DNA of 64,000 nt. Source: Membranipora membranacea. Taxonomy: Eukaryota; Bryozoa; Gymnolaemata; Cheilostomatida; Membraniporidae. Positions 8,314 through 38,778 of this stretch are shown here, piece by piece (positions within the stretch are counted from its first letter, which is position 1; each line of letters begins with the position of its first letter). A program made the position numbers and the translations under genes. The stretch is from positions 5,394,001 through 5,458,000 of the forward strand of contig OU612068.1 of NCBI GenBank assembly GCA_914767715.1. Direction: 5' to 3'. Under the pieces are notes generated by a model. That model was not told where the DNA came from and made no database searches. It was given only the letters and a program-made list of their open reading frames with translations.

Positions 8314-8711
8314 TAGTGCTATTACTGATAAGAAACTTGTATATTTGAGTTAGCCGGATCACTTTATCACTGTAATACGATTTTTTGTCCAACACATCAG
8401 TATCAGTCCATTGTTAAACAAGCTGTTGGATAGTTGCAAAGAAATTGTGAAGCATAGATAGAGGTTGTACGTAAGTATGCTCATTTTATGTTAATTGATC
8501 ATTTGTATGGGTATGCAACCTACAGCAGTGCACATACCACTGCACAACACACAGGTCTTCAGCTAGAAACCATCAGTCAAGCGCTGCTTCGAGGCCTTAT
8601 CTAGTACAACCTCCTCATGGCCGTCCCCATCAGCATGAATTCACCCCTGTGTGTTGATGAGCATCTCATTCCATCACTTCCAGCTTTTGGTAGTTTGACA
8701 TAATCAGTGTG

Positions 8712-8713
<2 letters not shown>

Positions 8714-8743
<30 letters not shown>
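8714..8743. repeat. TA microsatellite
   Basis: (TA)n within the intron upstream of the BAF coding exon. Its length differs between units (similar in A and B, shorter in C, very short in D, longest in E at about 38257-38296), the main length variation between otherwise identical copies. A second TA run lies in the BAF intron near 9484-9508. Confidence 0.85.
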
Positions 8744-8747
<4 letters not shown>

Positions 8748-8856
8748 TGTGCTGCTGATCTTGAGCTTCATATGTATATATCAATATCTTTTCTAGCTGC
8801 TTACCTTACTTTGCGATCGATTGTTACATAATGATTTGTTATTTTGCAGCAGAGCA

Positions 8857-9692
8857 ATGTCTTCGACAACACAGAAGCATGATAATTTTGTGTCGGAGCC
8901 ACTAGGTGACAAACCCGTCACAGACATACCTGGAATTGGACCTCGTACTGGGGAGCACTTGAATGAGCAGGGATATACCCAGGTGAGTTATTGTAATTTT
9001 TCCTTCCGTATCCCTCACCTGTATCATAACATTATTCTATATAATAACAATTTTATTGGCATCCAAAGGTAAAAGAAAAGGTCGTAATTTTGATATAAGT
9101 CAAAGTGTAACAATGCTATGCCGGTATAAGTTTTTAAAAAATAATTGGATTTTTCCAGTCATCAGCAAAACTTGTGATACACATGCTGTAGAACTTCAAC
9201 TACAAATTTTTAATCTTTTTGAGAAAAAAATAGAGCCTATGTCTTGACCATAATTATTATTGGGATTTAATAAAATAATTTGTTTTTTTTCAGTCATCAG
9301 CAAATTTTGTAATTCTCATGCTGGGGATTTACAAGATATTGTTTCACAGAAAATTGATTGATTTTCCAGTCATATCTTTGCTTTCTAATTGGGACAAGCA
9401 AAATAACTGTTTTTTTAGAAATGAATGATATCGACTGCTGAGAAAAGTGGGATTCACAGGTCTTAGTCAAGTTATAGTACAACATATATACATATATATA
9501 TATATATACTGTCATTTCATTACTGTATCATTATTGAACTATTGTTATTTTCAGGCAAGGCAGCTTGTAGGTCAAGAAATGCTGCATGGGGGTGATGCCG
9601 TAGAGGATGTAGTGCGTGGTGCTGGAGCCAATAACAGGAATGTGGACAACGCCGTTTCTGGAGTCAAAGGATGGACCCAAAACAACACATAA
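8857..9692 (+). CDS. BAF-like protein, copy A
   Basis: Coding exons are 8857-8982 (donor CAG|GTGAGT) and 9555-9692 (acceptor TTTCAG), joined in phase 0 to 87 residues; human BAF has 89. An acceptor at 8849 and a donor GTAAGT at 8471 suggest an upstream non-coding exon ending at 8470. The N-terminus [11 protein letters not shown] matches the MTTSQKHRDF start of BAF, where Ser/Thr residues are phosphorylated by VRK kinases. Residues 15-45 hold the helix-hairpin-helix core (PGIGP...GEHLNEQG) that contacts DNA backbone in BAF. Exon 2 keeps GQ, the GANN block and the tryptophan corresponding to W84 (W82 here). It replaces the acidic LKKDEDLFREW part and has no cysteines, so it is a divergent member. 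BAF dimers bridge DNA and bind LEM-domain nuclear-envelope proteins; whether this paralog does so is inference. Confidence 0.85.
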
Positions 9693-10135
9693 GCAAGAAG
9701 TACTCATTGACATAAGTTTGCGTAATCTAATTCATGGCACCTTTACCCATTATGAGTTGACCAACAATTCATAATCTACCCAAATTCAATATTTGCTAAA
9801 ATTGTTGCTTTTTAATTAGATATAACCATTTTTCATGAAATCTTTTGCCACTATATGGAAAGAATTCCTTATAATGAAAAATTAATAAAATTTAAAAAAA
9901 ACCCAACTTTCTTATTGGACCATAAGAATATTTCTTTCTAGGCTCCACGGTATCTCTGCACCATATTGCAAAACGACAAACCAAATATCCACCTGTAAAA
10001 GCATGTCAGAAGTATTAGAAGAAGATTTAAGAATGATATTAGTGGTATGTAAAAACTGACTAAGCTGCAGCTTTTTAGGAGAATTAAATGAAAACATTTT
10101 AAAAAAAATAACCGATGGTACAAAACAAATGATTT

Positions 10136-11182
10136 ATATATACTTTTATTGTCATTCTACATCATCTTTAGGAATGTTTTTCATGCAGTGACAGAACAAA
10201 AAAGAAAAAAACTTAAGCGGAGAGAAAAAATACTCAAGTAACAAGAATTAATAGGATATAAAGTGCTTTGATAGTTGTTGTTTAAAATGAGTGAGTTTGG
10301 TTGCTGAGCGTATCTGAATTGGTAAAGAGTTAAAAGTTGTAGTGATTTTTTGTCTTAATTGATCAGTGTGATAATGTAATAGGTATCTGTCTCTAAAAAA
10401 GGTTTTAGAGCTAGCTGGAATAAAGCCTTCCAAAAGAAAGTCAGGTGCAATCAAATGCAAAATTTGGAAACCAAAAATACAGGTGAAATGACCAGCAAGG
10501 AGAGGAAAAGGAATCAGACCAAGAGATGTATGTAAATCTCTTGTATGTATTAGATGATATGGTATGTGGCTGACATTTGCTATTAGGCGGAAAGCCCTCT
10601 TTTGGAGCAAGTATATTCTTTCAAGAATATATTGTGGTGATAGGTTGCCATATATGCGGATGCCATATATCATATGACAAAAGACATACTGGAAATAAAA
10701 GTTACGAGATGATTTACTATCTAGGAATGCCCTGCATTTCTGGAATAATGCCAAACTTTTGTTTATTTTGATGCAAATCTGGTCTACATGATCGTCCCAT
10801 GTCAATGAGTCATTCAAAGTAAAACCAAGGAGTTTGGTATTGGCATTTCGGTTTAGTTTTTTATGGTTAATTTTTAGATCTAAATCTAGAGATGTGGCTC
10901 TATGAGAGGGTTGTACAAGCATATAGTAAGATTTTTTTATGTTTATCAACATCCTATTATTCCTACACCAACTTTCTATCAAGTGTAGATCAGTATCACA
11001 TAAATCATTAAGTGTATCAAAGTTGTCAGATTTTGATACGAAAACTGTATCATCAGCGTAGGCAAATGCCTTGGAATGTAATGTGTAGGATAAAAGATCA
11101 TTGACGTATATGAGGAATAAACTTGGTGCCAGAATTGAGCCTTGGGGGACACCAATGTCTATTGTCTCGGCGCCAATGATTT
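10136..11182 (-). mobile_element. 5'-truncated LINE with open reverse-transcriptase frame, unit A only
   Basis: Minus-strand open frame from about 11172 to 10248 with GVPQGSILAPSLFLIYVNDL (RT motif B region), AYADDT (catalytic YADD-type motif C), then KLLGFTLNDSLTWDDHV and a C-terminal domain. It is uninterrupted for about 308 codons, with 3' end in AT-rich simple sequence near 10136. It is flanked by an 8-bp duplication AATGATTT (10128-10135 and 11175-11182). The site is empty in units B, C and D, so insertion followed the duplication, or the array copies came from an allele without it. It is CR1/L2/Jockey-like by motif order. Confidence 0.88.
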
Positions 11183-11375
11183 TGTCTCGGCGCCTACTTT
11201 CCTCCTCTTAAAATGAGAACGCAGGCAGTTTCAATATGTGATTTCACTCAATGTGATGACAAGACATGCATGGGCCTGTGCAATTGTCGCAGCATCAATA
11301 TTAACAAAGTTTTTTTTAATTATTATGAAGCAATTTAATAATGATGTAATCATAATCATTGACAGGGCCCGGATC

Positions 11376-11790
11376 CTAGTATACGGCCACACCTGCCTGG
11401 CCACTCATCTGACTCAAAGTTATCCTATTGATTCTTTCTATACCACAGCTAAACTGGTAGACATCCTAAATGAGTATTCTGTGCACGTTGGAGGGGAACG
11501 GGACAAAGAAAATAAAACCAAAACCAGACGCCAGCCCCTCAGTGAAATATCGATAGGAGAGGTGAAGCTAATATTACGTAATCTAGACACAAGTAAATCT
11601 ACCAACAGCGGGGATTTCCCCACCTGGGTGAGCAAATCTGCGTTTGAAGATATACGCGTACCAGCGACTGATATCATCAACTGAATGCTGAACTCCAACC
11701 AATATCCCCAAATGTGGAAAAATGCCGAAATAAGACCACTGAAGAAAACCGAAAACCAATCAACACCTGATAATTTACTTTAAAATTTTC
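11376..11790 (+). pseudogene. Older LINE reverse-transcriptase relic (unit A)
   Basis: Encodes the N-terminal part of a LINE reverse transcriptase: SEISIGEVKLILRNLDTSKS, then GDFPTWVSKSAFEDI, then TDIIN, an in-frame TGA, and LNSNQYPQMWKNAEIRPLKK. The stop lies in the middle of a normally continuous segment (TDIINxSLxxxxFPxxWK), so the copy is dead. It was present before the array duplicated. Confidence 0.75.
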
Positions 11791-14700
11791 AGCCAGAATT
11801 GAACATTCTCCTGGGTGCAATTTTTTTATGATATGATGATACACACAGCACTGCCAGCCCCATTCCCTGTATACCAATAAACAAACACAAAGATTTCCAC
11901 AAAAGTTAGTTGGGGGTACACTTAGCCTGGGCAGGCTGTCGTGTCGGGGCTAGGGTACACTCATATACTGAAAAGCTTAGTCGGCTGGTCATGGTTCAAA
12001 GCTTTGATGCATGTATGCATAGCATTCACCTTAAACCACCTGGCTATAGCTAGTTCCTTAACATAGTAACACTAGACATTCCGTGTGTCAACGCCATCGC
12101 TGCAACACCAAATCCCGAACAAAACTTAGGGAGCAAACACTCTTTTATTCCTATGTCAATAATGTATCACTACAGATTTTGTTCGCGACGTACAAGGACT
12201 TATTTGTAAGAGTTATCTTCCCAAATTACAATGTAGTCCATGCCATTCATTGTCAGGATTTACAAAGCAGTATTGATACAGGATAACAATCCCAACATCA
12301 AACAATGGCAACTGGAATTGTATAACTGGATGGCTAATAATCTAGGTTAGCACAATACAATTTTGAATATTATCATGGGCTAAAGCCCCTGTAACCCTTT
12401 GCTCTCTGTATGGCATCACAGCCATTAACACAGTGAGCAATATCCTCATGACAGTAGATACCATAGTAAAAACCTTTCATACTGTGATCCATCTGGATAC
12501 CCAACTAACCATATTGACTTCAAACTGTTGATGGCATATGGCCGAGGACCTATTGGTGACTGCATTTGTAAACTTTCTAACTCAAATTAAGCTGCAAAAC
12601 AAAATCCCTCCCCTGCCTTCTCTGGTCTTCACCTGATTGATTTGATTGATTTATTACATATCACAGACAATATTACCAGGGCTCTCAACCACTCAGGTTT
12701 TTGGGTTCAACTCAGGCTTCTCAGGGGATTTTAGAATGTGAGCTAAAACCTCAGATTTTGCTCGTTGGCAGAGATGAATAATATATAAACGATGCTAAAT
12801 GTTGCCTTACAATAATCTATGTCATATTATTAATGAATGATCAGGTATTACATTCTAGTTGTGATAAGCTATGCTCTCACTGCACTGCCTATTCAAGTCA
12901 TTTATGTGAAATTGATATGGCTAAATTCCAATTTGCATTTGAGAATGCTTTTAAAATGTAGCTTGTAATGAACTTGACATGATTGAATGAATCTAGTCTT
13001 TAATTTGAATATCAACACATTAAACCCCAACTTGCCTTTCTGTCAAAGCATCGCGGTTCAGACTGAGATGACATACATATTTGATCACAGGGTCAACACT
13101 GCTTGATGTTTTAAGCAGATAGTTGGACATTTATATCATTGGAAGGTGGCAAAATAATGCGCTTTCCCAGGAACGTCTTATCTGCTTGTTTAATAGCCGA
13201 TAGATTGACTTTCAGCTTGGCAGCGTTTTAATATTGAGAAGCCATGTTCTCGGGCAATACTAATAATATCCAAAGTGATTGTATCGAAATTATTTTTTGG
13301 TGTGGATAGTTGTGACAGCCCATTGAAATAATTGGCAACTGCATTGTCAATTTGTTCAAGTGGTGCTTTCTGATGGTTGCTGACAGCAGCACAGGATTGG
13401 TTTGCTTGTTGTTGAAGTCGCTTTCTTTATTTATTGCGTTTGCCTCTTATTGTGTACTCTATTTTAGACCACCTTGCTTGCATTGCTAATTTTTGGCAGA
13501 GATGAATAATAAAGATAACATCAAACTTTTGCATGAGAATTATGTGTGGTATTTGTTGTGGGTATTTGATTTCATTTGTGATAAGCTATGCTCTTACTGC
13601 ACTGCCAATCCCAGTGATTTGCAAAATAGATTATTATGGCTAAATAGAAATTTGAATTTTAGGAATGTTAAATAAGTGATTTTGCGGGTGAACCGGATAA
13701 ATCCAGGCGACATCAAACTTTTGCATGAGAATAATGTGTGGTATTTGTTGTGGGTATTTGATTTCATTTGTGAAAAGCTATGCTCTTATTGCACTGCCAA
13801 TCCCAGTGATTTGCAAATAGATTATTATGGCTAAATAGAAATTTGAATTTTAGGAATGTTAAAAAAGTCATTTTGCAGGTGAACTGGATAAACCATGGCA
13901 ATGATTTCAATAGCATCACATTACACCAATTATATTATGCCTTTCTACCCTGGCGGCTCGATTCGTCAGCCTTTAAATCAATATCTTTACAAACATATTT
14001 TTACATAATTTGAGATTACAGATTTTGTTCGCGACGTACAAGGACTTATTTGTAAGAGTTTTCTTCCCAAATAACAATGTAGTCCATGCCATTCATTGTC
14101 AGGATTTACAAAGCAATATTGATACAGGATAACAATACCAACTTCAAACAATTACAACTCGAGATGTATAACTGGTGATATTTATATATTCATTAGGAAA
14201 CAGCACAAGCTAAGATTGCACAGCAGTAAAGTCGAGATGACAAGATCTATTTTGTCTCAGAATTGCAATAATTGAGACCGGGTGCAAAATATGGACTTAC
14301 TTTTTTGGTTTGAATTTTCTCAACCAAGTGATCATTTTGTGATGTTATTCTATTTAATCAGCCAAAATCTGCGACTCGAGTTGTATAACTGGTGATATTT
14401 ATAGATTCATTAGGAATACAACAGCACATTTTGAGATTCAAACATGTAGTTTATTACGTGAAAGCTGAGATTGTAAATAGGCATGATGGATTGAAGTGAG
14501 GAGTTAAATCACAGCTGACAGAAATTTTTCATAATCAAGCGGTCATTGATTCAGAAAATAATTCGCGAAATTCATACTGACACAAGCCCATAAAAATATA
14601 CCTAGTATTGGTGGTCATCAAAATACACGACAGCCTAATAAGTAAGCATTTGAGAAACTATTATCCAAAGATTGTATGACATTTACATGAAAGCTGAAAT

Positions 14701-14864
14701 TACAATTAGGCTTGATGGACTAAAATAAGGCTTTACTTTAACTGTCAGAAAATGTCTTATCAATGATCACAGTGGAAATCAGGTTTACACTATTATATTG
14801 AAGTTGAAAATTAATTTAAGCGTAAATTAAATATTGAATGTCCGGTTGTGTTTCTCTTGAGCAA

Positions 14865-15137
14865 TTAAAATGTACAGTTTTTGTTTCCGAGCAAATGGCT
14901 TGGCATCCGTTTGCGTCGCACACTACCAACAACGCCAGCAAGTTGTCTCCCTCTCAATTTAACTTTATCCACAGTCCCGTGTAAATACGCCGTGCAGGAC
15001 GGTAAACGAAAAGATGGAGGATGGCATACTCCTTCATCCTCTGAAGACATAAGGTCTGTATGTAGCTGTAGGTTATTGATGTCGTCCATGCTCAAACCCA
15101 GGCCTTTTTTGATCCTCGTAATCCTATTCCGTAATTT
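14865..15137 (-). CDS. Possible terminal coding exon, unknown protein (unit B)
   Basis: Unit B copy of the block at 6547-6819. The translation is identical, which reflects the recent duplication and is not independent evidence of coding. Confidence 0.33.
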   Translation of the reverse strand, partial: KLRNRITRIKKGLGLSMDDINNLQLHTDLMSSEDEGVCHPPSFRLPSCTAYLHGTVDKVKLRGRQLAGVVGSVRRKRMPSHLLGNKNCTF

Positions 15138-15535
15138 CTAAAATACAGAGCAGAGAAGATTAACATATTTAATAAATTGCAAAAGTTCTAGGAGCGGATG
15201 GATGGGAAAGTTGGCATTGTATTATAAATTCTTTGTAAGAAGCTTGGCATCGTCAATATTGCTATAACGTGAGAGGGATCCCAGATTTAAAGTTCAGAGA
15301 AAGCTCTGTTTTTGTTCAAAGTTAAAAACTTTTAGCCTCATTCAGAAATCTATACTTGACTAAGCAGTTGCCAACAAGTTTCTACAGCAGCCGTCCCAAG
15401 AAATAATCCCTAATCACAATTAGCTGTCAGCCGATCAATACAGTCTAAAAATTCCTATCTAGTGATATGACAAATTGGTTACATCAGTTCGCTTTTGATT
15501 GATAAGAATAAAATATTTGCACATAATAAATTCAC

Positions 15536-15734
15536 CTACATTTTTCTTTTTGTTGACTTAGATCGGCTACCCTTTCTTTTGTCTGTATCTTTAATTTTGT
15601 GCCTTTCTACATCGTACTTCCGTCTAGTCATAAGCATGATATCCCTGTTCCGTATCCTTTCTATCGGAATTGGCAACTGACGAATTCTGCTGGCATACTC
15701 GAGAGCCACATCCTGGTTCGCAGTATGTTCGTAT
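15536..15734 (-). CDS. Possible coding exon, unknown basic protein (unit B)
   Basis: Unit B copy of the block at 7218-7416, same reading frame and splice acceptor. Confidence 0.28.
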
Positions 15735-16548
15735 CTAGAGAAAGATAGTGAACAGTGAGCACAAGCGATAATATGTCAGCAGAAGTGCTTGCATTCCAAT
15801 TTTTTCCCAAAATATAATTAGCTTAGATGAGATTATCAACCCGCTATGATTAATAGTATATAGAAATATATATACATTTTGTCCAATAAATTATAGTCCA
15901 GTCAAATTTCCAGCCAGAACTGTGAGTATACGACGTTTATAATAGTTTTGAAATTAGTTTGAGTATGTGCTGATTGCAGGTTAACTTTAAAGAGTGTTAC
16001 CAAGGAGTAACTCCTTGGTATTACCAACTCTAAAATTTAAATTGGATTTCCAGAAAAGTAAACACAACAAAAATTAATTTTCATTATCCAGTGATGCTCT
16101 TCCAAGTCCTTCACTTAACTTTCTATCGAAGTCATGATAGAAAAATAAACTTCTTGTAGTTAGAGTTTAAATTAACTAAGTTTGAATCATTGAAACATGA
16201 GATACCACTTTTTACTAGTTGGTAGAGTTGCGCAATACTTCTGACACCAGTTTACCATTGAGTTCAAAAAGTTAATTTTTGATGAGATCAGTGAATGCAT
16301 TATGAAAGTTTCATTTTCTAACAAGTTTTTATGGGAGGTTTTGATGTCAGACAAAGTTGCATGTTCTAACTTTCCTTTTTTGTTCATATCCTATCATACC
16401 TTTCACCGTCAACAATAGAAAAATCACTCACATCCAGTTGACGAGCTGTATAGATAAGAAGAAATTATAGGACTACGACAAACCGACTACACTTAAGATT
16501 ATCAGCGGGGTTACATTTACCTTGTAGCTTATTAGAATGTGCTTTTGT

Positions 16549-16631
16549 AGCCCCTCTTGACAAGCTTTGTTCAGTGGTGGTACCCCCCGCCCCACCCCAC
16601 CCGCTTCCGAACAAAGCTTGTCAAGACAGGC
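16549..16631. repeat. Hairpin with a G-quadruplex loop (unit B)
   Basis: Identical copy of the element at 8231-8313; the G-rich loop is 16583-16602 on the minus strand. Confidence 0.8.
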
Positions 16632-17029
16632 TAGTGCTATTACTGATAAGAAACTTGTATATTTGAGTTAGCCGGATCACTTTATCACTGTAATACGATT
16701 TTTTGTCCAACACATCAGTATCAGTCCATTGTTAAACAAGCTGTTGGATAGTTGCAAAGAAATTGTGAAGCATAGATAGAGGTTGTACGTAAGTATGCTC
16801 ATTTTATGTTAATTGATCATTTGTATGGGTATGCAACCTACAGCAGTGCACATACCACTGCACAACACACAGGTCTTCAGCTAGAAACCATCAGTCAAGC
16901 GCTGCTTCGAGGCCTTATCTAGTACAACCTCCTCATGGCCGTCCCCATCAGCATGAATTCACCCCTGTGTGTTGATGAGCATCTCATTCCATCACTTCCA
17001 GCTTTTGGTAGTTTGACATAATCAGTGTG

Positions 17030-17067
<38 letters not shown>

Positions 17068-17176
17068 TGTGCTGCTGATCTTGAGCTTCATATGTATATA
17101 TCAATATCTTTTCTAGCTGCTAACCTTACTTTGCGATCGATTGTTACATAATGATTTGTTATTTTGCAGCAGAGCA

Positions 17177-18012
17177 ATGTCTTCGACAACACAGAAGCAT
17201 GATAATTTTGTGTCGGAGCCACTAGGTGACAAACCCGTCACAGACATACCTGGAATTGGACCTCGTACTGGGGAGCACTTGAATGAGCAGGGATATACCC
17301 AGGTGAGTTATTGTAATTTTTCCTTCCGTATCCCTCACCTGTATCATAACATTATTCTATATAATAACAATTTTATTGGCATCCAAAGGTAAAAGAAAAG
17401 GTCGTAATTTTGATATAAGTCAAAGTGTAACAATGCTATGCCGGTATAAGTTTTTAAAAAATAATTGGATTTTTCCAGTCATCAGCAAAACTTGTGATAC
17501 ACATGCTGTAGAACTTCAACTACAAATTTTTAATCTTTTTGAGAAAAAAATAGAGCCTATGTCTTGACCATAATTATTATTGGGATTTAATAAAATAATT
17601 TGTTTTTTTTCAGTCATCAGCAAATTTTGTAATTCTCATGCTGGGGATTTACAAGATATTGTTTCACAGAAAATTGATTGATTTTCCAGTCATATCTTTG
17701 CTTTCTAATTGGGACAAGCAAAATAACTGTTTTTTTAGAAATGAATGATATCGACTGCTGAGAAAAGTGGGATTCACAGGTCTTAGTCAAGTTATAGTAC
17801 AACATATATACATATATATATATATATACTGTCATTTCATTACTGTATCATTATTGAACTATTGTTATTTTCAGGCAAGGCAGCTTGTAGGTCAAGAAAT
17901 GCTGCATGGGGGTGATGCCGTAGAGGATGTAGTGCGTGGTGCTGGAGCCAATAACAGGAATGTGGACAACGCCGTTTCTGGAGTCAAAGGATGGACCCAA
18001 AACAACACATAA
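17177..18012 (+). CDS. BAF-like protein, copy B
   Basis: Exons 17177-17302 and 17875-18012, identical in sequence to copy A, including the 572-nt intron as far as I can read. Same 87-residue product. The upstream non-coding-exon donor equivalent to 8471 is at about 16789. Confidence 0.85.
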
Positions 18013-18648
18013 GCAAGAAGTACTCATTGACATAAGTTTGCGTAATCTAATTCATGGCACCTTTACCCATTATGAGTTGACCAACAATTCATAATCTACC
18101 CAAATTCAATATTTGCTAAAATTGTTGCTTTTTAATTAGATATAACCATTTTTCATGAAATCTTTTGCCACTATATGGAAAGAATTCCTTATAATGAAAA
18201 ATTAATAAAATTTAAAAAAAACCCAACTTTCTTATTGGACCATAAGAATATTTCTTTCTAGGCTCCACGGTATCTCTGCACCATATTGCAAAACGACAAA
18301 CCAAATATCCACCTGTAAAAGCATGTCAGAAGTATTAGAAGAAGATTTAAGAATGATATTAGTGGTATGTAAAAACTGACTAAGCTGCAGCTTTTTAGGA
18401 GAATTAAATGAAAACATTTTGAAAAAAATCACCGATGGTACAAAACAAATGATTTTGTCTCGGCGCCTACTTTCCTCCTCTTAAAATGAGAACGCAGGCA
18501 GTTTCAATATGTGATTTCACTCAATGTGATGACAAGACATGCATGGGCCTGTGCAATTGTCGCAGCATCAATATTAACAAAGTTTTTTTTAATTATTATG
18601 AAGCAATTTAATAATGATGTAATCATAATCATTGACAGGGCCCGGATC

Positions 18649-19063
18649 CTAGTATACGGCCACACCTGCCTGGCCACTCATCTGACTCAAAGTTATCCTA
18701 TTGATTCTTTCTATACCACAGCTAAACTGGTAGACATCCTAAATGAGTATTCTGTGCACGTTGGAGGGGAACGGGACAAAGAAAATAAAACCAAAACCAG
18801 ACGCCAGCCCCTCAGTGAAATATCGATAGGAGAGGTGAAGCTAATATTACGTAATCTAGACACAAGTAAATCTACCAACAGCGGGGATTTCCCCACCTGG
18901 GTGAGCAAATCTGCGTTTGAGGATATACGCGTACCAGCGACTGATATCATCAACTGAATGCTGAACTCCAACCAATATCCCCAAATGTGGAAAAATGCCG
19001 AAATAAGACCACTGAAGAAAACCGAAAACCAATCAACACCTGATAATTTACTTTAAAATTTTC
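18649..19063 (+). pseudogene. Older LINE reverse-transcriptase relic (unit B)
   Basis: Copy of 11376-11790 with the same in-frame TGA. Confidence 0.75.
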
Positions 19064-22000
19064 AGCCAGAATTGAACATTCTCCTGGGTGCAATTTTTTT
19101 ATGATATGATGATACACACAGCACTGCCAGCCCCATTCCCTGTATACCAATAAACAAACACAAAGATTTCCACAAAAGTTAGTTGGGGGTACACTTAGCC
19201 TGGGCAGGCTGTCGTGTCGGGGCTAGGGTACACTCATATACTGAAAAGCTTAGTCGGCTGGTCATGGTTCAAAGCTTTGATGCATGTATGCATAGCATTC
19301 ACCTTAAACCACCTGGCTATAGCTAGTTCCTTAACATAGTAACACTAGACATTCCGTGTGTCAACGCCATCGCTGCAACACCAAATCCCGAACAAAACTT
19401 AGGGAGCAAACACTCTTTTATTCCTATGTCAATAATGTATCACTACAGATTTTGTTCGCGACGTACAAGGACTTATTTGTAAGAGTTATCTTCCCAAATT
19501 ACAATGTAGTCCATGCCATTCATTGTCAGGATTTACAAAGCAGTATTGATACAGGATAACAATCCCAACATCAAACAATGGCAACTGGAATTGTATAACT
19601 GGATGGCTAATAATCTAGGTTAGCACAATACAATTTTGAATATTATCATGGGCTAAAGCCCCTGTAACCCTTTGCTCTCTGTATGGCATCACAGCCATTA
19701 ACACAGTGAGCAATATCCTCATGACAGTAGATACCATAGTAAAAACCTTTCATACTGTGATCCATCTGGATACCCAACTAACCATATTGACTTCAAACTG
19801 TTGATGGCATATGGCCGAGGACCTATTGGTGACTGCATTTGTAAACTTTCTAACTCAAATTAAGCTGCAAAACAAAATCCCTCCCCTGCCTTCTCTGGTC
19901 TTCACCTGATTGATTTGATTGATTTATTACATATCACAGACAATATTACCAGGGCTCTCAACCACTCAGGTTTTTGGGTTCAACTCAGGCTTCTCAGGGG
20001 ATTTTAGAATGTGAGCTAAAACCTCAGATTTTGCTCGTTGGCAGAGATGAATAATATATAAACGATGCTAAATGTTGCCTTACAATAATCTATGTCATAT
20101 TATTAATGAATGATCAGGTATTACATTCTAGTTGTGATAAGCTATGCTCTCACTGCACTGCCTATTCAAGTCATTTATGTGAAATTGATATGGCTAAATT
20201 CCAATTTGCATTTGAGAATGCTTTTAAAATGTAGCTTGTAATGAACTTGACATGATTGAATGAATCTAGTCTTTAATTTGAATATCAACACATTAAACCC
20301 CAACTTGCCTTTCTGTCAAAGCATCGCGGTTCAGACTGAGATGACATACATATTTGATCACAGGGTCAACACTGCTTGATGTTTTAAGCAGATAGTTGGA
20401 CATTTATATCATTGGAAGGTGGCAAAATAATGCGCTTTCCCAGGAACGTCTTATCTGCTTGTTTAATAGCCGATAGATTGACTTTCAGCTTGGCAGCGTT
20501 TTAATATTGAGAAGCCATGTTCTCGGGCAATACTAATAATATCCAAAGTGATTGTATCGAAATTATTTTTTGGTGTGGATAGTTGTGACAGCCCATTGAA
20601 ATAATTGGCAACTGCATTGTCAATTTGTTCAAGTGGTGCTTTCTGATGGTTGCTGACAGCAGCACAGGATTGGTTTGCTTGTTGTTGAAGTCGCTTTCTT
20701 TATTTATTGCGTTTGCCTCTTATTGTGTACTCTATTTTAGACCACCTTGCTTGCATTGCTAATTTTTGGCAGAGATGAATAATAAAGATAACATCAAACT
20801 TTTGCATGAGAATTATGTGTGGTATTTGTTGTGGGTATTTGATTTCATTTGTGATAAGCTATGCTCTTACTGCACTGCCAATCCCAGTGATTTGCAAAAT
20901 AGATTATTATGGCTAAATAGAAATTTGAATTTTAGGAATGTTAAATAAGTGATTTTGCGGGTGAACCGGATAAATCCAGGCGACATCAAACTTTTGCATG
21001 AGAATAATGTGTGGTATTTGTTGTGGGTATTTGATTTCATTTGTGAAAAGCTATGCTCTTATTGCACTGCCAATCCCAGTGATTTGCAAATAGATTATTA
21101 TGGCTAAATAGAAATTTGAATTTTAGGAATGTTAAAAAAGTCATTTTGCAGGTGAACTGGATAAACCATGGCAATGATTTCAATAGCATCACATTACACC
21201 AATTATATTATGCCTTTCTACCCTGGCGGCTCGATTCGTCAGCCTTTAAATCAATATCTTTACAAACATATTTTTACATAATTTGAGATTACAGATTTTG
21301 TTCGCGACGTACAAGGACTTATTTGTAAGAGTTTTCTTCCCAAATAACAATGTAGTCCATGCCATTCATTGTCAGGATTTACAAAGCAATATTGATACAG
21401 GATAACAATACCAACTTCAAACAATTACAACTCGAGATGTATAACTGGTGATATTTATATATTCATTAGGAAACAGCACAAGCTAAGATTGCACAGCAGT
21501 AAAGTCGAGATGACAAGATCTATTTTGTCTCAGAATTGCAATAATTGAGACCGGGTGCAAAATATGGACTTACTTTTTTGGTTTGAATTTTCTCAACCAA
21601 GTGATCATTTTGTGATGTTATTCTATTTAATCAGCCAAAATCTGCGACTCGAGTTGTATAACTGGTGATATTTATAGATTCATTAGGAATACAACAGCAC
21701 ATTTTGAGATTCAAACATGTAGTTTATTACGTGAAAGCTGAGATTGTAAATAGGCATGATGGATTGAAGTGAGGAGTTAAATCACAGCTGACAGAAATTT
21801 TTCATAATCAAGCGGTCATTGATTCAGAAAATAATTCGCGAAATTCATACTGACACAAGCCCATAAAAATATACCTAGTATTGGTGGTCATCAAAATACA
21901 CGACAGCCTAATAAGTAAGCATTTGAGAAACTATTATCCAAAGATTGTATGACATTTACATGAAAGCTGAAATTACAATTAGGCTTGATGGACTAAAATA

Positions 22001-22137
22001 AGGCTTTACTTTAACTGTCAGAAAATGTCTTATCAATGATCACAGTGGAAATCAGGTTTACACTATTATATTGAAGTTGAAAATTAATTTAAGCGTAAAT
22101 TAAATATTGAATGTCCGGTTGTGTTTCTCTTGAGCAA

Positions 22138-22410
22138 TTAAAATGTACAGTTTTTGTTTCCGAGCAAATGGCTTGGCATCCGTTTGCGTCGCACACTACC
22201 AACAACGCCAGCAAGTTGTCTCCCTCTCAATTTAACTTTATCCACAGTCCCGTGTAAATACGCCGTGCAGGACGGTAAACGAAAAGATGGAGGATGGCAT
22301 ACTCCTTCATCCTCTGAAGACATAAGGTCTGTATGTAGCTGTAGGTTATTGATGTCGTCCATGCTCAAACCCAGGCCTTTTTTGATCCTCGTAATCCTAT
22401 TCCGTAATTT
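22138..22410 (-). CDS. Possible terminal coding exon, unknown protein (unit C)
   Basis: Unit C copy of the block at 6547-6819, unchanged in translation. Unlike the BAF exons of unit C, this block has not diverged. Confidence 0.33.
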   Translation of the reverse strand, partial: KLRNRITRIKKGLGLSMDDINNLQLHTDLMSSEDEGVCHPPSFRLPSCTAYLHGTVDKVKLRGRQLAGVVGSVRRKRMPSHLLGNKNCTF

Positions 22411-22806
22411 CTAAAATACAGAGCAGAGAAGATTAACATATTTAATAAATTGCAAAAGTTCTAGGAGCGGATGGATGGGAAAGTTGGCATTGTATTATAA
22501 ATTCTTTGTAAGAAGCTTGGCATCGTCAATATTGCTATAACGTGAGAGGGATCCCAGATTTAAAGTTCAGAGAAAGCTCCGTTTTTGTTCAAAGTTAAAA
22601 ACTTTTAGCCTCATTCAGAAATCTACTTGACTAAGCAGTTGCCAACAAGTTTCTACAGCAACCGTCCCAAGAAATAATCCCTAATCACAATTAGCTGTCA
22701 GCCGATCAATACAGTCTAAAAATTCCTATCTAGTGATATGACAAATTGGTTACATCAGTTCGCTTTTGATTGATAAGAATAAAATATTTGCACATAATAA
22801 ATTCAC

Positions 22807-23005
22807 CTACATTTTTCTTTTTGTTGACTTAGATCGGCTACCCTTTCTTTTGTCTGTATCTTTAATTTTGTGCCTTTCTACATCGTACTTCCGTCTAGTC
22901 ATAAGCATGATATCCCTGTTCCGTATCCTTTCTATCGGAATTGGCAACTGACGAATTCTGCTGGCATACTCGAGAGCCACATCCTGGTTCGCAGTATGTT
23001 CGTAT
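22807..23005 (-). CDS. Possible coding exon, unknown basic protein (unit C)
   Basis: Unit C copy of the block at 7218-7416, same frame. Confidence 0.28.
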
Positions 23006-23819
23006 CTAGAGAAAGATAGTGAACAGTGAGCACAAGCGATAATATGTCAGCAGAAGTGCTTGCATTCCAATTTTTTCCCAAAATATAATTAGCTTAGATG
23101 AGATTATCAACCCGCTATGATTAATAGTATATAGAAATATATATACATTTTGTCCAATAAATTATAGTCCAGTCAAATTTCCAGCCAGAACTGTGAGTAT
23201 ACGACGTTTATAATAGTTTTGAAATTAGTTTGAGTATGTGCTGATTGCAGGTTAACTTTAAAGAGTGTTACCAAGGAGTAACTCCTTGGTATTACCAACT
23301 CTAAAATTTAAATTGGATTTCCAGAAAAGTAAACACAACAAAAATTAATTTTCATTATCCAGTGATGCTCTTCCAAGTCCTTCACTTAACTTTCTATCGA
23401 AGTCATGATAGAAAAATAAACTTCTTGTAGTTAGAGTTTAAATTAACTAAGTTTGAATCATTGAAACATGAGATACCACTTTTTACTAGTTGGTAGAGTT
23501 GCGCAATACTTCTGACACCAGTTTACCATTGAGTTCAAAAAGTTAATTTTTGATGAGATCAGTGAATGCATTATGAAAGTTTCATTTTCTAACAAGTTTT
23601 TATGGGAGGTTTTGATGTCAGACAAAGTTGCATGTTCTAATTTTCCTTTTTTGTTCATATCCTATCATACCTTTCACCGTCAACAATAGAAAAATCACTC
23701 ACATCCAGTTGACGAGCTGTATAGATAAGAAGAAATTATAGGACTACGACAAACCGACTACACTTAAGATTATCAGCGGGGTTACATTTACCTTGTAGCT
23801 TATTAGAATGTGCTTTTGT

Positions 23820-23902
23820 AGCCCCTCTTGACAAGCTTTGTTCAGTGGTGGTACCCCCCGCCCCACCCCACCCGCTTCCGAACAAAGCTTGTCAAGACAG
23901 GC
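23820..23902. repeat. Hairpin with a G-quadruplex loop (unit C)
   Basis: Identical copy of the element at 8231-8313; the G-rich loop is 23854-23873 on the minus strand. Confidence 0.8.
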
Positions 23903-24441
23903 TAGTGCTATTACTGATAAGAAACTTGTATATTTGAGTTAGCCGGATCACTTTATCACTGTAATACGATTTTTTGTCCAACACATCAGTATCAGTCCAT
24001 TGTTAAACAAGCTGTTGGATAGTTGCAAAGAAATTGTGAAGCATAGATAGAGGTTGTACGTAAGTATGCTCATTTTATGTTAATTGATCATTTGTATGGG
24101 TATGCAACCTACAGCAGTGCACATACCACTGCACAACACACAGGTCTTCAGCTAGAAACCATCAGTCAAGCGCTGCTTCGAGGCCTTATCTAGTACAACC
24201 TCCTCATGGCCGTCCCCATCAGCATGAATTCACCCCTGTGTGTTGATGAGCATCTCATTCCATCACTTCCAGCTTTTGGTAGTTTGACATAATCAGTGTG
24301 TTCTATATATATATATATATATATATATGTATTGTGCTGCTGATCTTGAGCTTCATATGTATATATCAATATCTTTTCTAGCTGCTAACCTTACTTTGCG
24401 ATCGATTGTTACATAATGATTTGTTATTTTGCAGCAGAGCA

Positions 24442-25256
24442 ATGTCTTCGACAACACAGAAGTATGATAATTTTGTGTCGGAGCCACTAGATGACAAACC
24501 CGTCACAGAAATACCTGGAATTGGACCTCGTACTGGGGAGCACTTGAATGAGCAGGGATTTACCCAGGTGAGTTATTGTAATTTTTCCTTCCGTATCCCT
24601 CACCTGTATCATAACATTATTCTATATAATAACAATTTTATTGGCATCCAAAGGTAAAAGAAAAGGTCGTAATTTTGATATAAGTCAAAGTGTAACAATG
24701 CTATGCCGGTATAAGTTTTTAAAAAATAATTGGATTTTTCCAGTCATCAGCAAAACTTGTGATACACATGCTGTAGAACTTCAACTACAAATTTTTAATC
24801 TTTTTGAGAAAAAAATAGAGCCTATGTCTTGACCATAAATATTATTGGGATTTAATAAAATAATTTGTTTTTTTTCAGTCATCAGCAAATTTTGTAATTC
24901 TCATGCTGGGGATTTACAAGATATTGTTTCACAGAAAATTGATTGATTTTCCAGTCATATCTTTGCTTTCTAATTGGGACAAGCAAAATAACTGTTTTTT
25001 TAGAAATGAATGATATCGACTGCTGAGAAAAGTGGGATTCACAGGTCTTAGTCAAGTTATAGTACAACATATATACATATATATATATATATACTGTCAT
25101 TTCATTACTGTATCATTATTGAACTATTGTTATTTTCAGGCAAGGCAGCATTGGGGTGATGCCGTAAAGGATGTAGTGCGTGGTGCTGGAGCCAATAACA
25201 GGAATGTGGAAACCGCCGATGCTGCAGTCAAAGAATGGACCCAAAACAACGCATAA
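24442..25256 (+). CDS. BAF-like protein, copy C, with internal deletion
   Basis: Exons 24442-24567 and 25140-25256, giving 80 residues. Relative to copy A, a 21-nt in-frame deletion at the start of exon 2 removes most of LVGQEML. In BAF this stretch leads into the helix that packs the dimer, so the fold may be altered. Twelve further base changes in the exons all change residues: H8Y, G17D, D23E and Y40F in exon 1, and eight in exon 2. The 572-nt intron differs by a single base (near 24837). The reading frame and splice sites are intact, so the copy is probably expressed or very recently disabled. Confidence 0.78.
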
Positions 25257-25892
25257 GCAAGAAGTACTCATTGACATAAGTTTGCGTAATCTAATTCATG
25301 GCACCTTTACCCATTATGAGTTGACCAACAATTCATAATCTACCCAAATTCAATATTTGCTAAAATTGTTGCTTTTTAATTAGATATAACCATTTTTCAT
25401 GAAATCTTTTGCCACTATATGTAAAGAATTCCTTATAATGAAAAATTAATAAAATTTAAAAAAAACCCAACTTTCTTATTGGACCATAAGAATATTTCTT
25501 TCTAGGCTCCACGGTATCTCTGCACCATATTGCAAAACGACAAACCAAATATCCACCTGTAAAAGCATGTCAGAAGTATTAGAAGAAGATTTAAGAATGA
25601 TATTAGTGGTATGTAAAAACTGACTAAGCTGCAGCTTTTTAGGAGAATTAAATGAAAACATTTTGAAAAAAATCACCGATGGTACAAAACAAATGATTTT
25701 GTCTCGGCGCCTACTTTCCTCCTCTTAAAATGAGAACGCAGGCAGTTTCAATATGTGATTTCACTCAATGTGATGACAAGACATGCATGGGCCTGTGCAA
25801 TTGTCGCAGCATCAATATTAACAAAGTTTTTTTTAATTATTATGAAGCAATTTAATAATGATGTAATCATAATCATTGACAGGGCCCGGATC

Positions 25893-26307
25893 CTAGTATA
25901 CGGCCACACCTGCCTGGCCACTCATCTGACTCAAAGTTATCCTATTGATTCTTTCTATACCACAGCTAAACTGGTAGACATCCTAAATGAGTATTCTGTG
26001 CACGTTGGAGGGGAACGGGACAAAGAAAATAAAACCAAAACCAGACGCCAGCCCCTCAGTGAAATATCGATAGGAGAGGTGAAGCTAATATTACGTAATC
26101 TAGACACAAGTAAATCTACCAACAGCGGGGATTTCCCCACCTGGGTGAGCAAATCTGCGTTTGAGGATATACGCGTACCAGCGACTGATATCATCAACTG
26201 AATGCTGAACTCCAACCAATATCCCCAAATGTGGAAAAATGCCGAAATAAGACCACTGAAGAAAACCGAAAACCAATCAACACCTGATAATTTACTTTAA
26301 AATTTTC
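25893..26307 (+). pseudogene. Older LINE reverse-transcriptase relic (unit C)
   Basis: Copy of 11376-11790 with the same in-frame TGA. Confidence 0.75.
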
Positions 26308-26684
26308 AGCCAGAATTGAACATTCTCCTGGATGCAATTTTTTTATGATATGATGATACACACAGCACTGCCAGCCCCATTCCCTGTATACCAATAAACA
26401 AACACAAAGATTTCCACAAAAGTTAGTTGGGGGTACACTTAGCCTGGGCAGGCTGTCGTGTCGGGGCTAGGGTACACTCATATACTGAAAAGCTTAGTCG
26501 GCTGGTCATGGTTCAAAGCTTTGATGCATGTATGCATAGCATTCACCTTAAACCACCTGGCTATAGCTAGTTCCTTAACATAGTAACACTAGACATTCCG
26601 TGTGTCAACGCCATCGCTGCAACACCAAATCCCGAACAAAACTTAGGGAGCAAACACTCTTTTATTCCTATGTCAATAATGTAT

Positions 26685-33662: not shown

Positions 33663-33708
33663 ACTCTTACAAATAAGTCCTTGTACGTCGCGAACAAAAT
33701 CTGTAGTG
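33663..33708 (-). repeat. Inverted copy of the array-boundary repeat
   Basis: Reverse complement of the first 45-46 bp of each unit (the sequence beginning CACTACAGATTTTG at 3850, 12168 and 19441). It ends with CTGTAGTG at 33708, immediately before unit D. The match stops after TTTGTAAGAGT. Together with the left edge at 3850 it gives the region CACTACAG...CTGTAGTG ends, as a DNA transposon would have. Longer copies of the same repeat (~120 bp) occur in each unit start and internally at about 5698-5817, 14016-14135 and 21289-21408. Confidence 0.8.
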
Positions 33709-34178
33709 TGTAATACGATTTTTTGTCCAACACATCAGTATCAGTCCATTGTTAAACAAGCTGTTGGATAGTTGCAAAGAAATTGTGAAGCATAGATAGA
33801 GGTTGTACGTAAGTATGCTCATTTTATGTTAATTGATCATTTGTATGGGTATGCAACCTACAGCAGTGCACATACCACTGCACAACACACAGGTCTTCAG
33901 CTAGAAACCATCAGTCAAGCGCTGCTTCGAGGCCTTATCTAGTACAACCTCCTCATGGCCGTCCCCATCAGCATGAATTCACCCCTGTGTGTTGATGAGC
34001 ATCTCATTCCATCACTTCCAGCTTTTGGTAGTTTGACATAATCAGTGTGTTCTATATATATATATGTATTGTGCTGCTGATCTTGAGCTTCATATGTATA
34101 TATCAATATCTTTTCTAGCTGCTAACCTTACTTTGCGATCGATTGTTACATAATGATTTGTTATTTTGCAGCAGAGCA

Positions 34179-35014
34179 ATGTCTTCGACAACAAAGAAGT
34201 ATGATAATTTTGTGTCGGAGCCACTAGGTGACAAACCCGTCACAGACATACCTGGAATTGGACCTCGTACTGGGGAGCACTTGAATGAGCAGGGATTTAC
34301 CCAGGTGAGTTATTGTAATTTTTCCTTCCGTATCCCTCACCTGTATCATAACATTATTCTATATAATAACAATTTTATTGGCATCCAAAGGTAAAAGAAA
34401 AGGTCGTAATTTTGATATAAGTCAAAGTGTAACAATGCTATGCCGGTATAAGTTTTTAAAAAATAATTGGATTTTTCCAGTCATCAGCAAAACTTGTGAT
34501 ACACATGCTGTAGAACTTCAACTACAAATTTTTAATCTTTTTGAGAAAAAAATAGAGCCTATGTCTTGACCATAATTATTATTGGGATTTAATAAAATAA
34601 TTTGTTTTTTTTCAGTCATCAGCAAATTTTGTAATTCTCATGCTGGGGATTTACAAGATATTGTTTCACAGAAAATTGATTGATTTTCCAGTCATATCTT
34701 TGCTTTCTAATTGGGACAAGCAAAATAACTGTTTTTTTAGAAATGAATGATATCGACTGCTGAGAAAAGTGGGATTCACAGGTCTTAGTCAAGTTATAGT
34801 ACAACATATATACATATATATATATATATACTGTCATTTCATTACTGTATCATTATTGAACTATTGTTATTTTCAGGCAAGGCAGCTTGTAGGTCAAGAA
34901 ATGCTGCATGGGGGTGATGCCGTAGAGGATGTAGTGCGTGGTGCTGGAGCCAATAACAGGAATGTGGAAACCGCCGATGCTGGAGTCAAAAAATGGACCC
35001 AAAACAACACATAA
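34179..35014 (+). CDS. BAF-like protein, copy D
   Basis: Exons 34179-34304 and 34877-35014, giving 87 residues. Compared with copy A it has Q6K, H8Y, Y40F, D73E, N74T, V76D, S77A and G81K; no silent change is seen, and the intron reads the same. Only about 470 bp of unit sequence precede the ATG, so the probable non-coding first exon is kept but the upstream G-rich hairpin is lost. Confidence 0.84.
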
Positions 35015-35650
35015 GCAAGAAGTACTCATTGACATAAGTTTGCGTAATCTAATTCATGGCACCTTTACCCATTATGAGTTGACCAACAATTCATAATCTA
35101 CCCAAATTCAATATTTGCTAAAATTGTTGCTTTTTAATTAGATATAACCATTTTTCATGAAATCTTTTGCCACTATATGATAAGAATTCCTTATAATGAA
35201 AAATTAATAAAATTTAAAAAAAACCCAACTTTCTTATTGGACCATAAGAATATTTCTTTCTAGGCTCCACGGTATCTCTGCACCATATTGCAAAACGACA
35301 AACCAAATATCCACCTGTAAAAGCATGTCAGAAGTATTAGAAGAAGATTTAAGAATGATATTAGTGGTATGTAAAAACTGACTAAGCTGCAGCTTTTTAG
35401 GAGAATTAAATGAAAACATTTTGAAAAAAATCACCGATGGTACAAAACAAATGATTTTGTCTCGGCGCCTACTTTCCTCCTCTTAAAATGAGAACGCAGG
35501 CAGTTTCAATATGTGATTTCACTCAATGTGATGACAAGACATGCATGGGCCTGTGCAATTGTCGCAGCATCAATATTAACAAAGTTTTTTTTAATTATTA
35601 TGAAGCAATTTAATAATGATGTAATCATAATCATTGACAGGGCCCGGATC

Positions 35651-36065
35651 CTAGTATACGGCCACACCTGCCTGGCCACTCATCTGACTCAAAGTTATCC
35701 TATTGATTCTTTCTATACCACAGCTAAACTGGTAGACATCCTAAATGAGTATTCTGTGCACGTTGGAGGGGAACGGGACAAAGAAAATAAAACCAAAACC
35801 AGACGCCAGCCCCTCAGTGAAATATCGATAGGAGAGGTGAAGCTAATATTACGTAATCTAGACACAAGTAAATCTACCAACAGCGGGGATTTCCCCACCT
35901 GGGTGAGCAAATCTGCGTTTGAGGATATACGTGTACCAGCGACTGATATCATCAACTGAATGCTGAACTCCAACCAATATCCCCAAATGTGGAAAAATGC
36001 CGAAATAAGACCACTGAAGAAAACCGAAAACCAATCAACACCTGATAATTTACTTTAAAATTTTC
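35651..36065 (+). pseudogene. Older LINE reverse-transcriptase relic (unit D)
   Basis: Copy of 11376-11790 with the same in-frame TGA. Confidence 0.75.
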
Positions 36066-36427
36066 AGCCAGAATTGAACATTCTCCTGGGTGCAATTTTT
36101 TTATGATATGATGATACACACAGCACTGCCAGCCCCATTCCCTGTATACCAATAAACAAACACAAAGATTTCCACAAAAGTTAGTTGGGGGTACACTTAG
36201 CCTGGGCAGGCTGTCGTGTCGGGGCTAAATTTTATTAATTTTTCATTATAAGGAATTCTTATCATATAGTGGCAAAAGATTTCATGAAAAATGGTTATAT
36301 CTAATTAAAAAGCAACAATTTTAGCAAATATTGAATTTGGGTAGATTATGAATTGTTGGTCAACTCATAATGGGTAAAGGTGCCATGAATTAGATTACGC
36401 AAACTTATGTCAATGAGTACTTCTTGC

Positions 36428-38143
36428 TTATGTGTTGTTTTGGGCCCATTTTTTGACTCCAGCATTGGCGGTTTCCACATTGCTGTTATTGGCTCCAGCA
36501 CCACGCACTACATTCTTTACGGCATCACCCCCATGCAGCATTTCTTGACCTACAAGCTGCCTTGCCTGAAAATAACAATAGTTCAATAATGATACAGTAA
36601 TGAAATGACAGTATATATATATATATATATATGTATATATGTTGTACTATAACTTGACTAAGACCTGTGAATCCCACTTTTCTCAGCAGTCGATATCATT
36701 CATTTCTAAAAAAACAGTTAGTTTGCTTGTCCCAATTAGAAAGCAAAGATATGACTGGAAAATCAATCAATTTTCTGTGAAACAATATCTTGTAAATCCC
36801 CAGCATGAGAATTACAAAATTTGCTGATGACTGAAAAAAAACAAATTATTTTATTAAATCCCAATAATAATTATGGTCAAGACATAGGCTCTATTTTTTT
36901 CTCAAAAAGATTAAAAATTTGTAGTTGAAGTTCTACAGCATGTGTATCACAAGTTTTGCTGATGACTGGTTTAGCAATCTATGCTAGTTCACAGCACTTG
37001 AATAATGAGAGTGGTAGGTTTACTGATGAGTGATGGTACTGATATAATCTTGTAGATAATCTTTTATTAATTCTACGCAATATCTTGTCGTACTATTTCA
37101 CCGTAAAGTCTGAAAAGATGTTATAAAAAACAATGGTAAGGCTCTAGAGTCAATTAGCTTGAATTAATATATAAAATACAAGCATACATGTATATGCGAA
37201 GTATGCAAATACAGAAAGAAATGCTGCAAAGGAGTGTTTGCCAAGAGTTTGTGTAAAAACAATATGGTAATAAAAGGAAAATATCGTACCTTTAGCTCCT
37301 TCCAAGTGTGTGCTTTCTTATGATAGTACGTTCTTGATTATGACTTGGAAAATTGTATCTTAAATATTCCAGACAGAGAAAATGTAAATACTAGTATTTA
37401 AATGTGTACGCAGGGAGAAATAATATATTACATGATTCTCCTCTGGCACTCGATCGGTAACTGACAGAGGACCGAATTGACCCTAGACACTGAGTTCAGT
37501 GTTGGGCAACATAACAATAGGGACACCAGGCTGACCAGTTCTCTAGACCAATCGCACGATAGCAAGAGGGCACCGAAACCAAGATCAAACGAACTCCCAC
37601 CATTGTCCGAAGACTCCCGCAACACTCACTCCAAGCAGCCAGCACTATGCCACTTCATTGTTTCCAAAATGCCTGATTTAGCAGTTTTAAGGATTAGTGA
37701 ATCTCATTTTATTATACTATGACAACTCTGACGAACTCATTGATAGATATAATCTACCAAATTACATCTAACAATTGAAATAAAACTTCACTCAGACTTA
37801 ACATAAAATCGTTATTGTTATCTTATCAGCTATCTTCACAACTGGAAAAATCCAATTATTTTTTAAAAACTTATACCGGCATAGCATTGTTACACTTTGA
37901 CTTATATCAAAATTACGACCTTTTCTTTTACCTTTGGATGCCAATAAAATTGTTATTATATGGAATAATGATATGATACAGGTGAGGGATACGGAAGGAA
38001 AAATTACAATAACTCACCTGGGTAAATCCCTGCTCATTCAAGTGCTCCCCAGTAGCAGGTCCAATTCCAGGTACGGCTGTGACGGGTTTGTCACCTAGTG
38101 GCTCCGACACAAAATTATCATACTTCTTTGTTGTCGAAGACAT
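36428..38143 (-). CDS. BAF-like protein, copy E
   Basis: Minus strand: exon 1 is 38143-38018 and exon 2 is 36565-36428, giving 87 residues with intact frame and splice sites. Relative to its nearest copy D it has D23A, I24V and R30A next to the helix-hairpin-helix GIG turn, and E59K, D60N, R70S, D76N and T83A in exon 2. Again there are no silent changes. The intron is enlarged to about 1.45 kb by an insertion (36970-37845). Loss of three acidic residues and gain of a lysine would raise the charge. The R30A change sits in the DNA-binding turn, so DNA affinity may differ. Confidence 0.82.
36970..37845. mobile_element. 876-bp insertion in the copy E BAF intron
   Basis: Sequence foreign to the unit, flanked by ACTGG at 36965-36969 and again at 37841-37845. 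The unit has a single ACTGG at this place, so this behaves as a 5-bp target-site duplication. I see no terminal inverted repeats. An 81-codon plus-strand frame (37477-37722) has no recognisable domain. It could be a non-autonomous element or a retroelement fragment. Confidence 0.6.
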
Positions 38144-38252
38144 TGCTCTGCTGCAAAATAACAAATCATTATGTAACAATTGATCGCAAAGTAAGGTTAG
38201 CAGCTAGAAAAGATATTGATATATACATATGAAGCTCAAGATCAGCAGCACA

Positions 38253-38298
<46 letters not shown>

Positions 38299-38693
38299 CA
38301 CACTGATAATGTCAAACTACCAAAAGCTGGAAGTGATGGAATGAGATGCTCATCAACACACAGGGGTGAATTCATGCTGATGGGGACGGCCATGAGAAGG
38401 TTGTACTAGATAAGGCCTCGAAGCAGCGCTTGACTGATGGTTTCTAGCTGAAGACCAGTGTGTTGTGCAGTGGTATGTGCACTGCTGTAGGTTGTATACC
38501 CATACAAATGATCAATTAACATAAAATGAGCATACTTACGTACAACCTCTATCTATGCTTCACAATTTCTTTGCAACTGTCCAACAGCTTGTTTAACAAT
38601 GGACTGATACTGATGTGTTGGACAAAAAATCGTATTACAGCGATAAATTGATCCGGCTAACTCAAATATACAAGTTTCTTATCAGTAATAGCA

Positions 38694-38778
38694 CTAGCCT
38701 GTCTTGACAAGCATTGTTTGGAAGCGGGTGGGGTGGGGCGGGGGGTACCACCACTGAACAAAGCTTGTCAAGAGGGGC
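38694..38778. repeat. Hairpin with a G-quadruplex loop (unit E)
   Basis: Inverted copy with the G-run on the plus strand at 38726-38745. One arm has changed (GCATTGTTTGG instead of GCTTTGTTCGG), weakening the stem, while the four G-runs are unchanged. Confidence 0.75.

Follow-up and report, generated by a model that had tools for sequence, protein, structure and literature searches.

Organization and identity of the gene cluster

The window examined here, a stretch of 64,000 nucleotides from the bryozoan Membranipora membranacea (C4:5394001-5458000, contig OU612068.1), contains five BAF-like genes, designated A to E. Each gene has an ATG, an open frame and a stop, and is divided into two coding exons by a GT-AG intron, for which the donor in gene E reads GTGAGT. 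Genes A, B, and C each occupy one of three tandem units of ~7.3 kb; genes D and E are carried by partial copies of this unit, the one with E being inverted (Table 1). In all five genes the splice-acceptor-like sequence TTTTGCAG is found just 5' of the ATG, which suggests a non-coding first exon.

BAF is an essential nuclear protein, and the preliminary description of this DNA assigned the genes to the BAF family. Pfam supports this placement: against the PF02961 profile (cut-off 25 bits), gene A scores 67.3 bits and gene E 63.2 bits, and C and D, which were scored by exon 1 and not whole, also exceed the cut-off. Lys7, Gly26, and Ile27 are invariant in seven aligned sequences and Gly28 is present in six of the seven, thus retaining the equivalent of human Lys6 and the G-I(-G) of the helix-hairpin-helix. 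Thr4, at the N-terminal Thr/Ser phospho-acceptor site before QKH, is likewise invariant (7/7) and is a putative phosphorylation site; the array proteins read MSSTT here. The intron falls after codon 42, a position shared with the canonical BAF (BANF1) gene of this genome (exon 1 ending GFDM and exon 2 beginning AYVV, with boundaries deduced from reading frame and splice signals). That canonical gene was found once, at C8:9792599-9793809, and its best score against PDB BAF chains is 136.6 bits, versus 45.3 bits for gene A. Unlike the canonical protein, the array proteins are multi-copy and fast-evolving, slightly shorter, strongly changed in the second half, and only 36–38% identical to the C8 product. 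The basic helix 6 residues human Lys72 and Arg75, which are a functional trait of canonical BAF and not of the whole family, are not kept, as the first of these aligns with Arg70 in A to D and Ser70 in E, and the residue equivalent to Arg75 is acidic (Asp or Glu) in all five genes. For this reason the genes are termed BAF-like and not BAF; judged by sequence, they are divergent BAF-like paralogs within PF02961, which narrows the original family assignment.

The preliminary description also recommended looking for further copies. The genome (339,339,785 bases in 18 contigs) was searched with the PF02961 model, giving nine exon matches, and protein searches then added second exons and no further gene. 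In total, one canonical BAF gene on C8, the five genes on C4, and two BAF-like genes on C3 (L010 and L011) were found; these copy counts come from family and protein searches, which give lower bounds for repeats and large families. No further copies were detected by tblastn in six 10-kb stretches beside the C4 and C3 clusters, with one weak stop-containing match (E 0.01) excluded. Outside this genome, a single-sequence protein search returned no relatives, and a profile search confirmed two of 31 candidates, both PF02961 members. No relatives were found in viral contigs in two scans or in the bacterial and archaeal contigs searched.

Divergence of coding and non-coding sequence

Among genes A to E, 23 of 264 coding sites vary, and every one of these changes is a replacement, with 12, 8, and 3 sites at codon positions 1, 2, and 3, respectively. 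Synonymous codon differences number zero in all 10 gene pairs, which extends to the whole array the earlier report that no silent change was seen. Because the coding sequences of A and B are identical, the five genes encode four protein versions. Several codons take multiple states, including 23 (D/E/A), 76 (V/D/N), and 81 (G/E/K), as had been read initially. Genes A and D differ at nine coding sites and at 0 of 572 intron sites, exactly as first counted. Two other comparisons needed amendment. Between A and C there are 13 replacements instead of 12, the additional one being at codon 54 beside the 21-nt in-frame deletion; the deletion itself and the single intron difference (1/572) stand. Between D and E the nine replacements and three substitutions in the shared intron, all private to E, were counted correctly, but an intron insertion of ~870 nt in E had been overlooked.

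An alignment of all five copies, proposed in the preliminary description as a check, extends from 470 bases upstream to 194 bases downstream of the genes and has 36 variable columns: the 23 coding sites and 13 of 1,266 non-coding columns, gaps included. Over the whole unit, genes B and C differ at 6 of 7,004 non-exon sites and 13 of 243 exon sites, a 62-fold per-base contrast (Fisher p = 1e-15), and the corresponding values for A and C are 13/7,003 and 13/243, a 29-fold contrast. The initial statement that the copies diversify only in exons is thus slightly too strong, although the exon excess it described is pronounced. For gene D, 3 of 2,255 non-exon sites and 9 of 264 exon sites differ from B, and 5 of 2,255 non-exon sites and 8 exon sites differ from C. 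Any non-exon stretch of 264 bp holds at most two differences between B and C and at most three between A and C, and the non-coding differences between B and C are scattered, at an evenly low level, across the 7.3-kb unit. Private non-coding changes are unequal between A (8) and B (1; p = 0.04), which may reflect unequal clocks. Gene E looks mosaic, in that its 5' half carries 20 non-coding differences in ~1457 bases and its 3' half one E-private difference in 602, a hint that some local conversion took place or that E is composite.

A second BAF-like pair on C3

The two BAF-like genes on C3, at 13.84-13.86 Mb, are 9.7 kb apart (L010 3569-4347; L011 5271-6046). They differ by one extra codon and by 21 substitutions in 273 coding bases, all of them replacements, with no synonymous codon differences. 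Their non-coding DNA differs at 41 of 1454 sites (2.8%; upstream 7/256, intron 16/500, downstream 18/698), and a block further 3' differs at 29 of 1749. The coding excess over non-coding DNA is significant for the whole coding sequence (Fisher p = 3e-4) and for exon 1, where 19 of 126 sites are changed (p = 5e-8). The changed halves of the protein differ between the two families, with 19 of 21 substitutions in exon 1 on C3 and 14 of the 23 variable sites in exon 2 in the C4 array.

Near-identical tandem copies are the hardest case for assembly, and the preliminary description had named consensus error as a possible source of the exon differences. We regard an assembly or polishing artefact, or a set of uncollapsed haplotypes, as very improbable. 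Errors ignore codon position, yet no synonymous change is found among the 23 array sites and the 21 C3 substitutions; coding length changes are confined to 21 and 3 nt; and the pattern recurs on another chromosome. Agreement between two unlinked loci of the family speaks against a local assembly fault.

Tests of selection and competing explanations

If 23 changes of the same types are placed at random in the coding sequence, a mean of 5.3 synonymous changes is expected, and zero was obtained in 0.2% of 100,000 draws (P = 0.002). For likelihood analysis, a codon model and a nucleotide model were fitted jointly, with shared branch lengths, to a tree with the groups AB, C, and DE. This fit assumes a single tree for exons and flanks, which may fail for E. 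Using 7,025 non-coding columns of the full unit, with missing data in D and E, the ratio of replacement to silent rates (omega) was estimated at 12.4, with a range of ~7–21 (a log-likelihood drop of ~1.9, interpolated between printed values). A model with omega = 1 and a free exon rate was rejected in favor of one with both parameters free (likelihood ratio statistic 15.1, p = 1e-4). With near-gene DNA only, omega was 11.9 and the same null model was again rejected (p = 1.5e-4). For the C3 pair, with kappa and base frequencies fixed by the analyst, omega was 3.9 over the whole coding sequence and 8.1 in exon 1, and omega = 1 with a free rate was rejected in both cases (p = 0.0036 and 0.0068). 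The strong positive selection initially proposed is thereby backed by codon-model fits and replicated at an unlinked locus.

We therefore consider it probable (roughly 0.87) that these five intact BAF-like genes arose by very recent segmental duplication and that strong positive selection on the protein has made them diverge, as judged from the sequence. Segmental duplication would have produced spare BAF-like copies while the canonical BAF gene stayed on C8. With that gene in place, the copies would have been free to change, and repeated selection may have favored successive replacements. By their predicted function the proteins would dimerize and bind DNA or BAF partners as BAF does, and the replacements would retune that binding. 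Diversification would have been very fast, because B and C differ by only 0.09% in neutral DNA.

The initial proposal that mutation is targeted to exons draws on the sharp exon/intron contrast alone, and we judge a special mutator of this kind extremely improbable. As the sole cause it is rejected by the tests of omega = 1 with a free exon rate, both in the array and in the C3 pair, and as a helper it is not needed: adding an exon-specific rate to a free omega gives no gain (likelihood ratio statistic 1.5, p = 0.23), and the fitted rate falls below 1. The mutational spectrum in exons is like that outside them (10:13 versus 20:16 transitions to transversions; p = 0.43), and exon 2 of the C3 pair has just two changes in 147 bases. 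A strand bias resembling editing or deaminase activity was considered and rejected, since nine of the 10 exon transitions are A-G, but a fraction of 0.67 is predicted from the replacement-capable sites (p = 0.11).

A different account would hold that the exon differences are old and that introns and flanks have been homogenized repeatedly by gene conversion or unequal crossing-over, with selection keeping the exons different. Near-identical tandem and inverted copies are prone to such exchange, the two halves of E differ in divergence, omega is higher on the young copies (29) than on E (5; p = 0.0016), and the states at codons 8 and 81 hint at shuffled older variants. However, silent sites interspersed with the replacement sites are undiverged and no older than the rest, low divergence extends evenly over the 7.3-kb unit and not just near the genes, the fit gains nothing from a separate exon rate, and positive selection would be required anyway. 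The gene conversion invoked in the preliminary description is consequently not needed, and we hold repeated homogenization to be unlikely. Partial homogenization of the flanks may nonetheless have occurred, given that the 3' half of E is closer than the 5' half and that the His/Tyr states at codon 8 depart from the neutral order of the copies. In that case diversification need not have been as fast, but selection would still be needed.

Several observations weigh against diversification of these genes by recent positive selection. Genes A and B show the reverse pattern, with nine differences in 7,009 non-exon sites and none in 264 exon sites, so not every copy diversifies. Codon 8 encodes His in A and B, as it does in the C3 pair and in the C8 gene, and Tyr in C, D, and E, even though E is the most distant by flanking DNA; this does not fit E as the neutral outgroup unless there was back-change, shuffling, or another root. 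E also has a lower omega, and two-parameter estimates of omega run to the bound in both the array and the C3 fits for lack of any synonymous change. Exon 2 of the C3 pair shows no excess (2/147 versus 41/1454), and six codons of the pair are changed at two or three bases, so that silent steps could be hidden. Hot codons common to the C4 and C3 families number four (p = 0.09), or three in a gapped alignment, which is not above chance, and the share of variable codons with altered charge (9/19) is in line with the chance expectation (0.40, p = 0.49). The evidence is also the sequence of a single genome.

Positions of the replacements and possible drivers

Array codons were matched to human BAF residues from a phmmer alignment counted by hand. 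Codons 6, 8, 17, 23, 24, 30, and 40 correspond to human residues 5, 7, 16, 22, 23, 29, and 39, and codons 70, 73, 76, 77, 78, and 81 to residues 72, 75, 78, 79, 80, and 83. Variable codons thus align with human Gln5, Gly16, Leu23, Lys72, and Arg75, to which DNA binding or its regulation has been ascribed. Gln5 and Lys6 are described as bonding DNA phosphates, and Leu23 as contributing to the pocket of Lys6 (PMC4266902); the Gly16Arg change gives a sevenfold higher affinity for DNA (PMC10099716); and Lys72 and Arg75 lie near the phosphorylated N-terminus, to which Lys72 makes a salt bridge, while helix 4 is at the monomer interface (PMC8053085). Gene C has Asp for Gly at the Gly16 equivalent, and its deleted stretch, LVGQEML, aligns with human residues 45–51 and would correspond to helix 4. 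Variable codons are denser in codons 68–85, the helix 6 equivalent (8/18 versus 11/69, p = 0.02), although this range was picked post hoc and the result is weak. Taken together, the location of the variable sites is suggestive, but not proof, of changing binding surfaces.

As for the driver, our guess favors conflict with foreign or mobile DNA, or with their antagonists, and, failing that, germline conflict. An arms race fits the finding that vaccinia virus needs its B1 kinase to inactivate BAF, which otherwise inhibits replication of the viral genome (PMC13245274). We tentatively propose, as a somewhat doubtful extension, that the BAF-like genes form a rapidly renewed DNA-bridging repertoire, whose duplication and diversification would be a response to viral or mobile DNA, or to their BAF antagonists, in an arms race, with the housekeeping BAF kept elsewhere. 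Selection could instead be reproductive and not defensive, with sexual or meiotic conflict acting on a BAF2-like family expressed in the gonads, a reasonable possibility that still falls short of even odds. It fits the cichlid banf2w gene, a female-specific BAF2 copy with replacement changes: cichlid banf2 paralogs vary in copy number and have two coding exons, and the banf2w product is altered at three amino acids, with non-conservative substitutions, and has also lost one residue (PMC8268354).

Like the array genes, the banf2/banf2w genes are BAF paralogs of recent duplication, encode ~90 residues in two coding exons, and show replacements and a small in-frame deletion. They differ in that three residues are changed in one female-specific copy, versus 23 replacement sites over five genes and a second locus here. 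None of the other papers listed in literature searches dealt with diverging BAF copies, as judged from titles and the starts of abstracts, which test an absence from print weakly. Snake venom genes with accelerated exon evolution (ASSET, PMC2711939) provide a similar signature, as their exons diverge and their introns stay similar; those genes encode secreted toxins that change by segment switches, whereas the array shows mainly scattered point changes in a family known as nuclear. Both the array and the C3 pair have exon divergence above intron divergence and more replacement than silent change. The exon-fast, intron-slow signature is a known one that is found here, with replication, in an unexpected protein family. 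BAF-like copies evolving at an omega of ~12, with replication at a second locus, provide a natural variant set for testing where on the protein the pressure acts and what exerts it. They also offer an unusually clean case for measuring selection just after duplication, with the duplicated segment itself as the neutral reference.

Borders and neighboring features

Table 1. Positions in the window of the BAF-like genes, duplication units, and associated segments.
Feature	Positions	Strand	Remarks
Gene A, coding exon 1	8857..8982	+	
Gene A, intron	8983..9554	+	572 nt; same in A, B, and D; one difference in C
Gene A, coding exon 2	9555..9692	+	
Gene B, coding exon 1	17177..17302	+	coding sequence as in A
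Gene B, coding exon 2	17875..18012	+	
Gene C, coding exon 1	24442..24567	+	
Gene C, coding exon 2	25140..25256	+	21-nt in-frame deletion of LVGQEML
Gene D, coding exon 1	34179..34304	+	
Gene D, coding exon 2	34877..35014	+	
Gene E, coding exon 1	38018..38143	-	
Gene E, coding exon 2	36428..36565	-	
Gene E, intron insertion	36970..37840	-	~870 nt; CCAGT repeated at both borders
Duplication unit A	3847..12165	+	
Extra segment	10136-11174		~1 kb; unit A only; minus-strand reverse-transcriptase fragment (RVT_1, E 7.6e-13)
Duplication unit B	12165..19440	+	
Duplication unit C	19438..26684	+	
Partial unit with D	33709..36227	+	
Inverted partial unit with E	36226..39431	-	

The tandem units A, B, and C begin with the identical sequence CACTACAGATTTTG at 3850, 12168, and 19441 on the plus strand, and 46 bases of this unit-start sequence form the left border of D in inverted orientation (33663-33708, minus strand). 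The unit-start sequence resembles a transposon end, which would have determined the borders of the duplication. No clear terminal inverted repeat was seen by eye in the intron insertion of gene E. An inverted repeat, CTTGACAAGCTTTGTTC ... GAACAAAGCTTGTCAAG, is located at 8238-8307, ~550 bases 5' of the BAF-like start, and has equivalents in the other units, with one arm altered in the unit of E. To the left of the array, the open reading frame at 2297-3133 had no relative among 133 candidates. To the right, exons of an ion-channel-like gene occupy 26676-29896 on the minus strand; all four open reading frames submitted from 27864-29896 matched Ion_trans at E ≤ 0.05, and two of the four exceeded the Pfam cut-off. 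The reading frame at 26676-27338 enters the end of unit C (26684) by three codons and then stops, as if the right end of the array had truncated the ion-channel-like gene.

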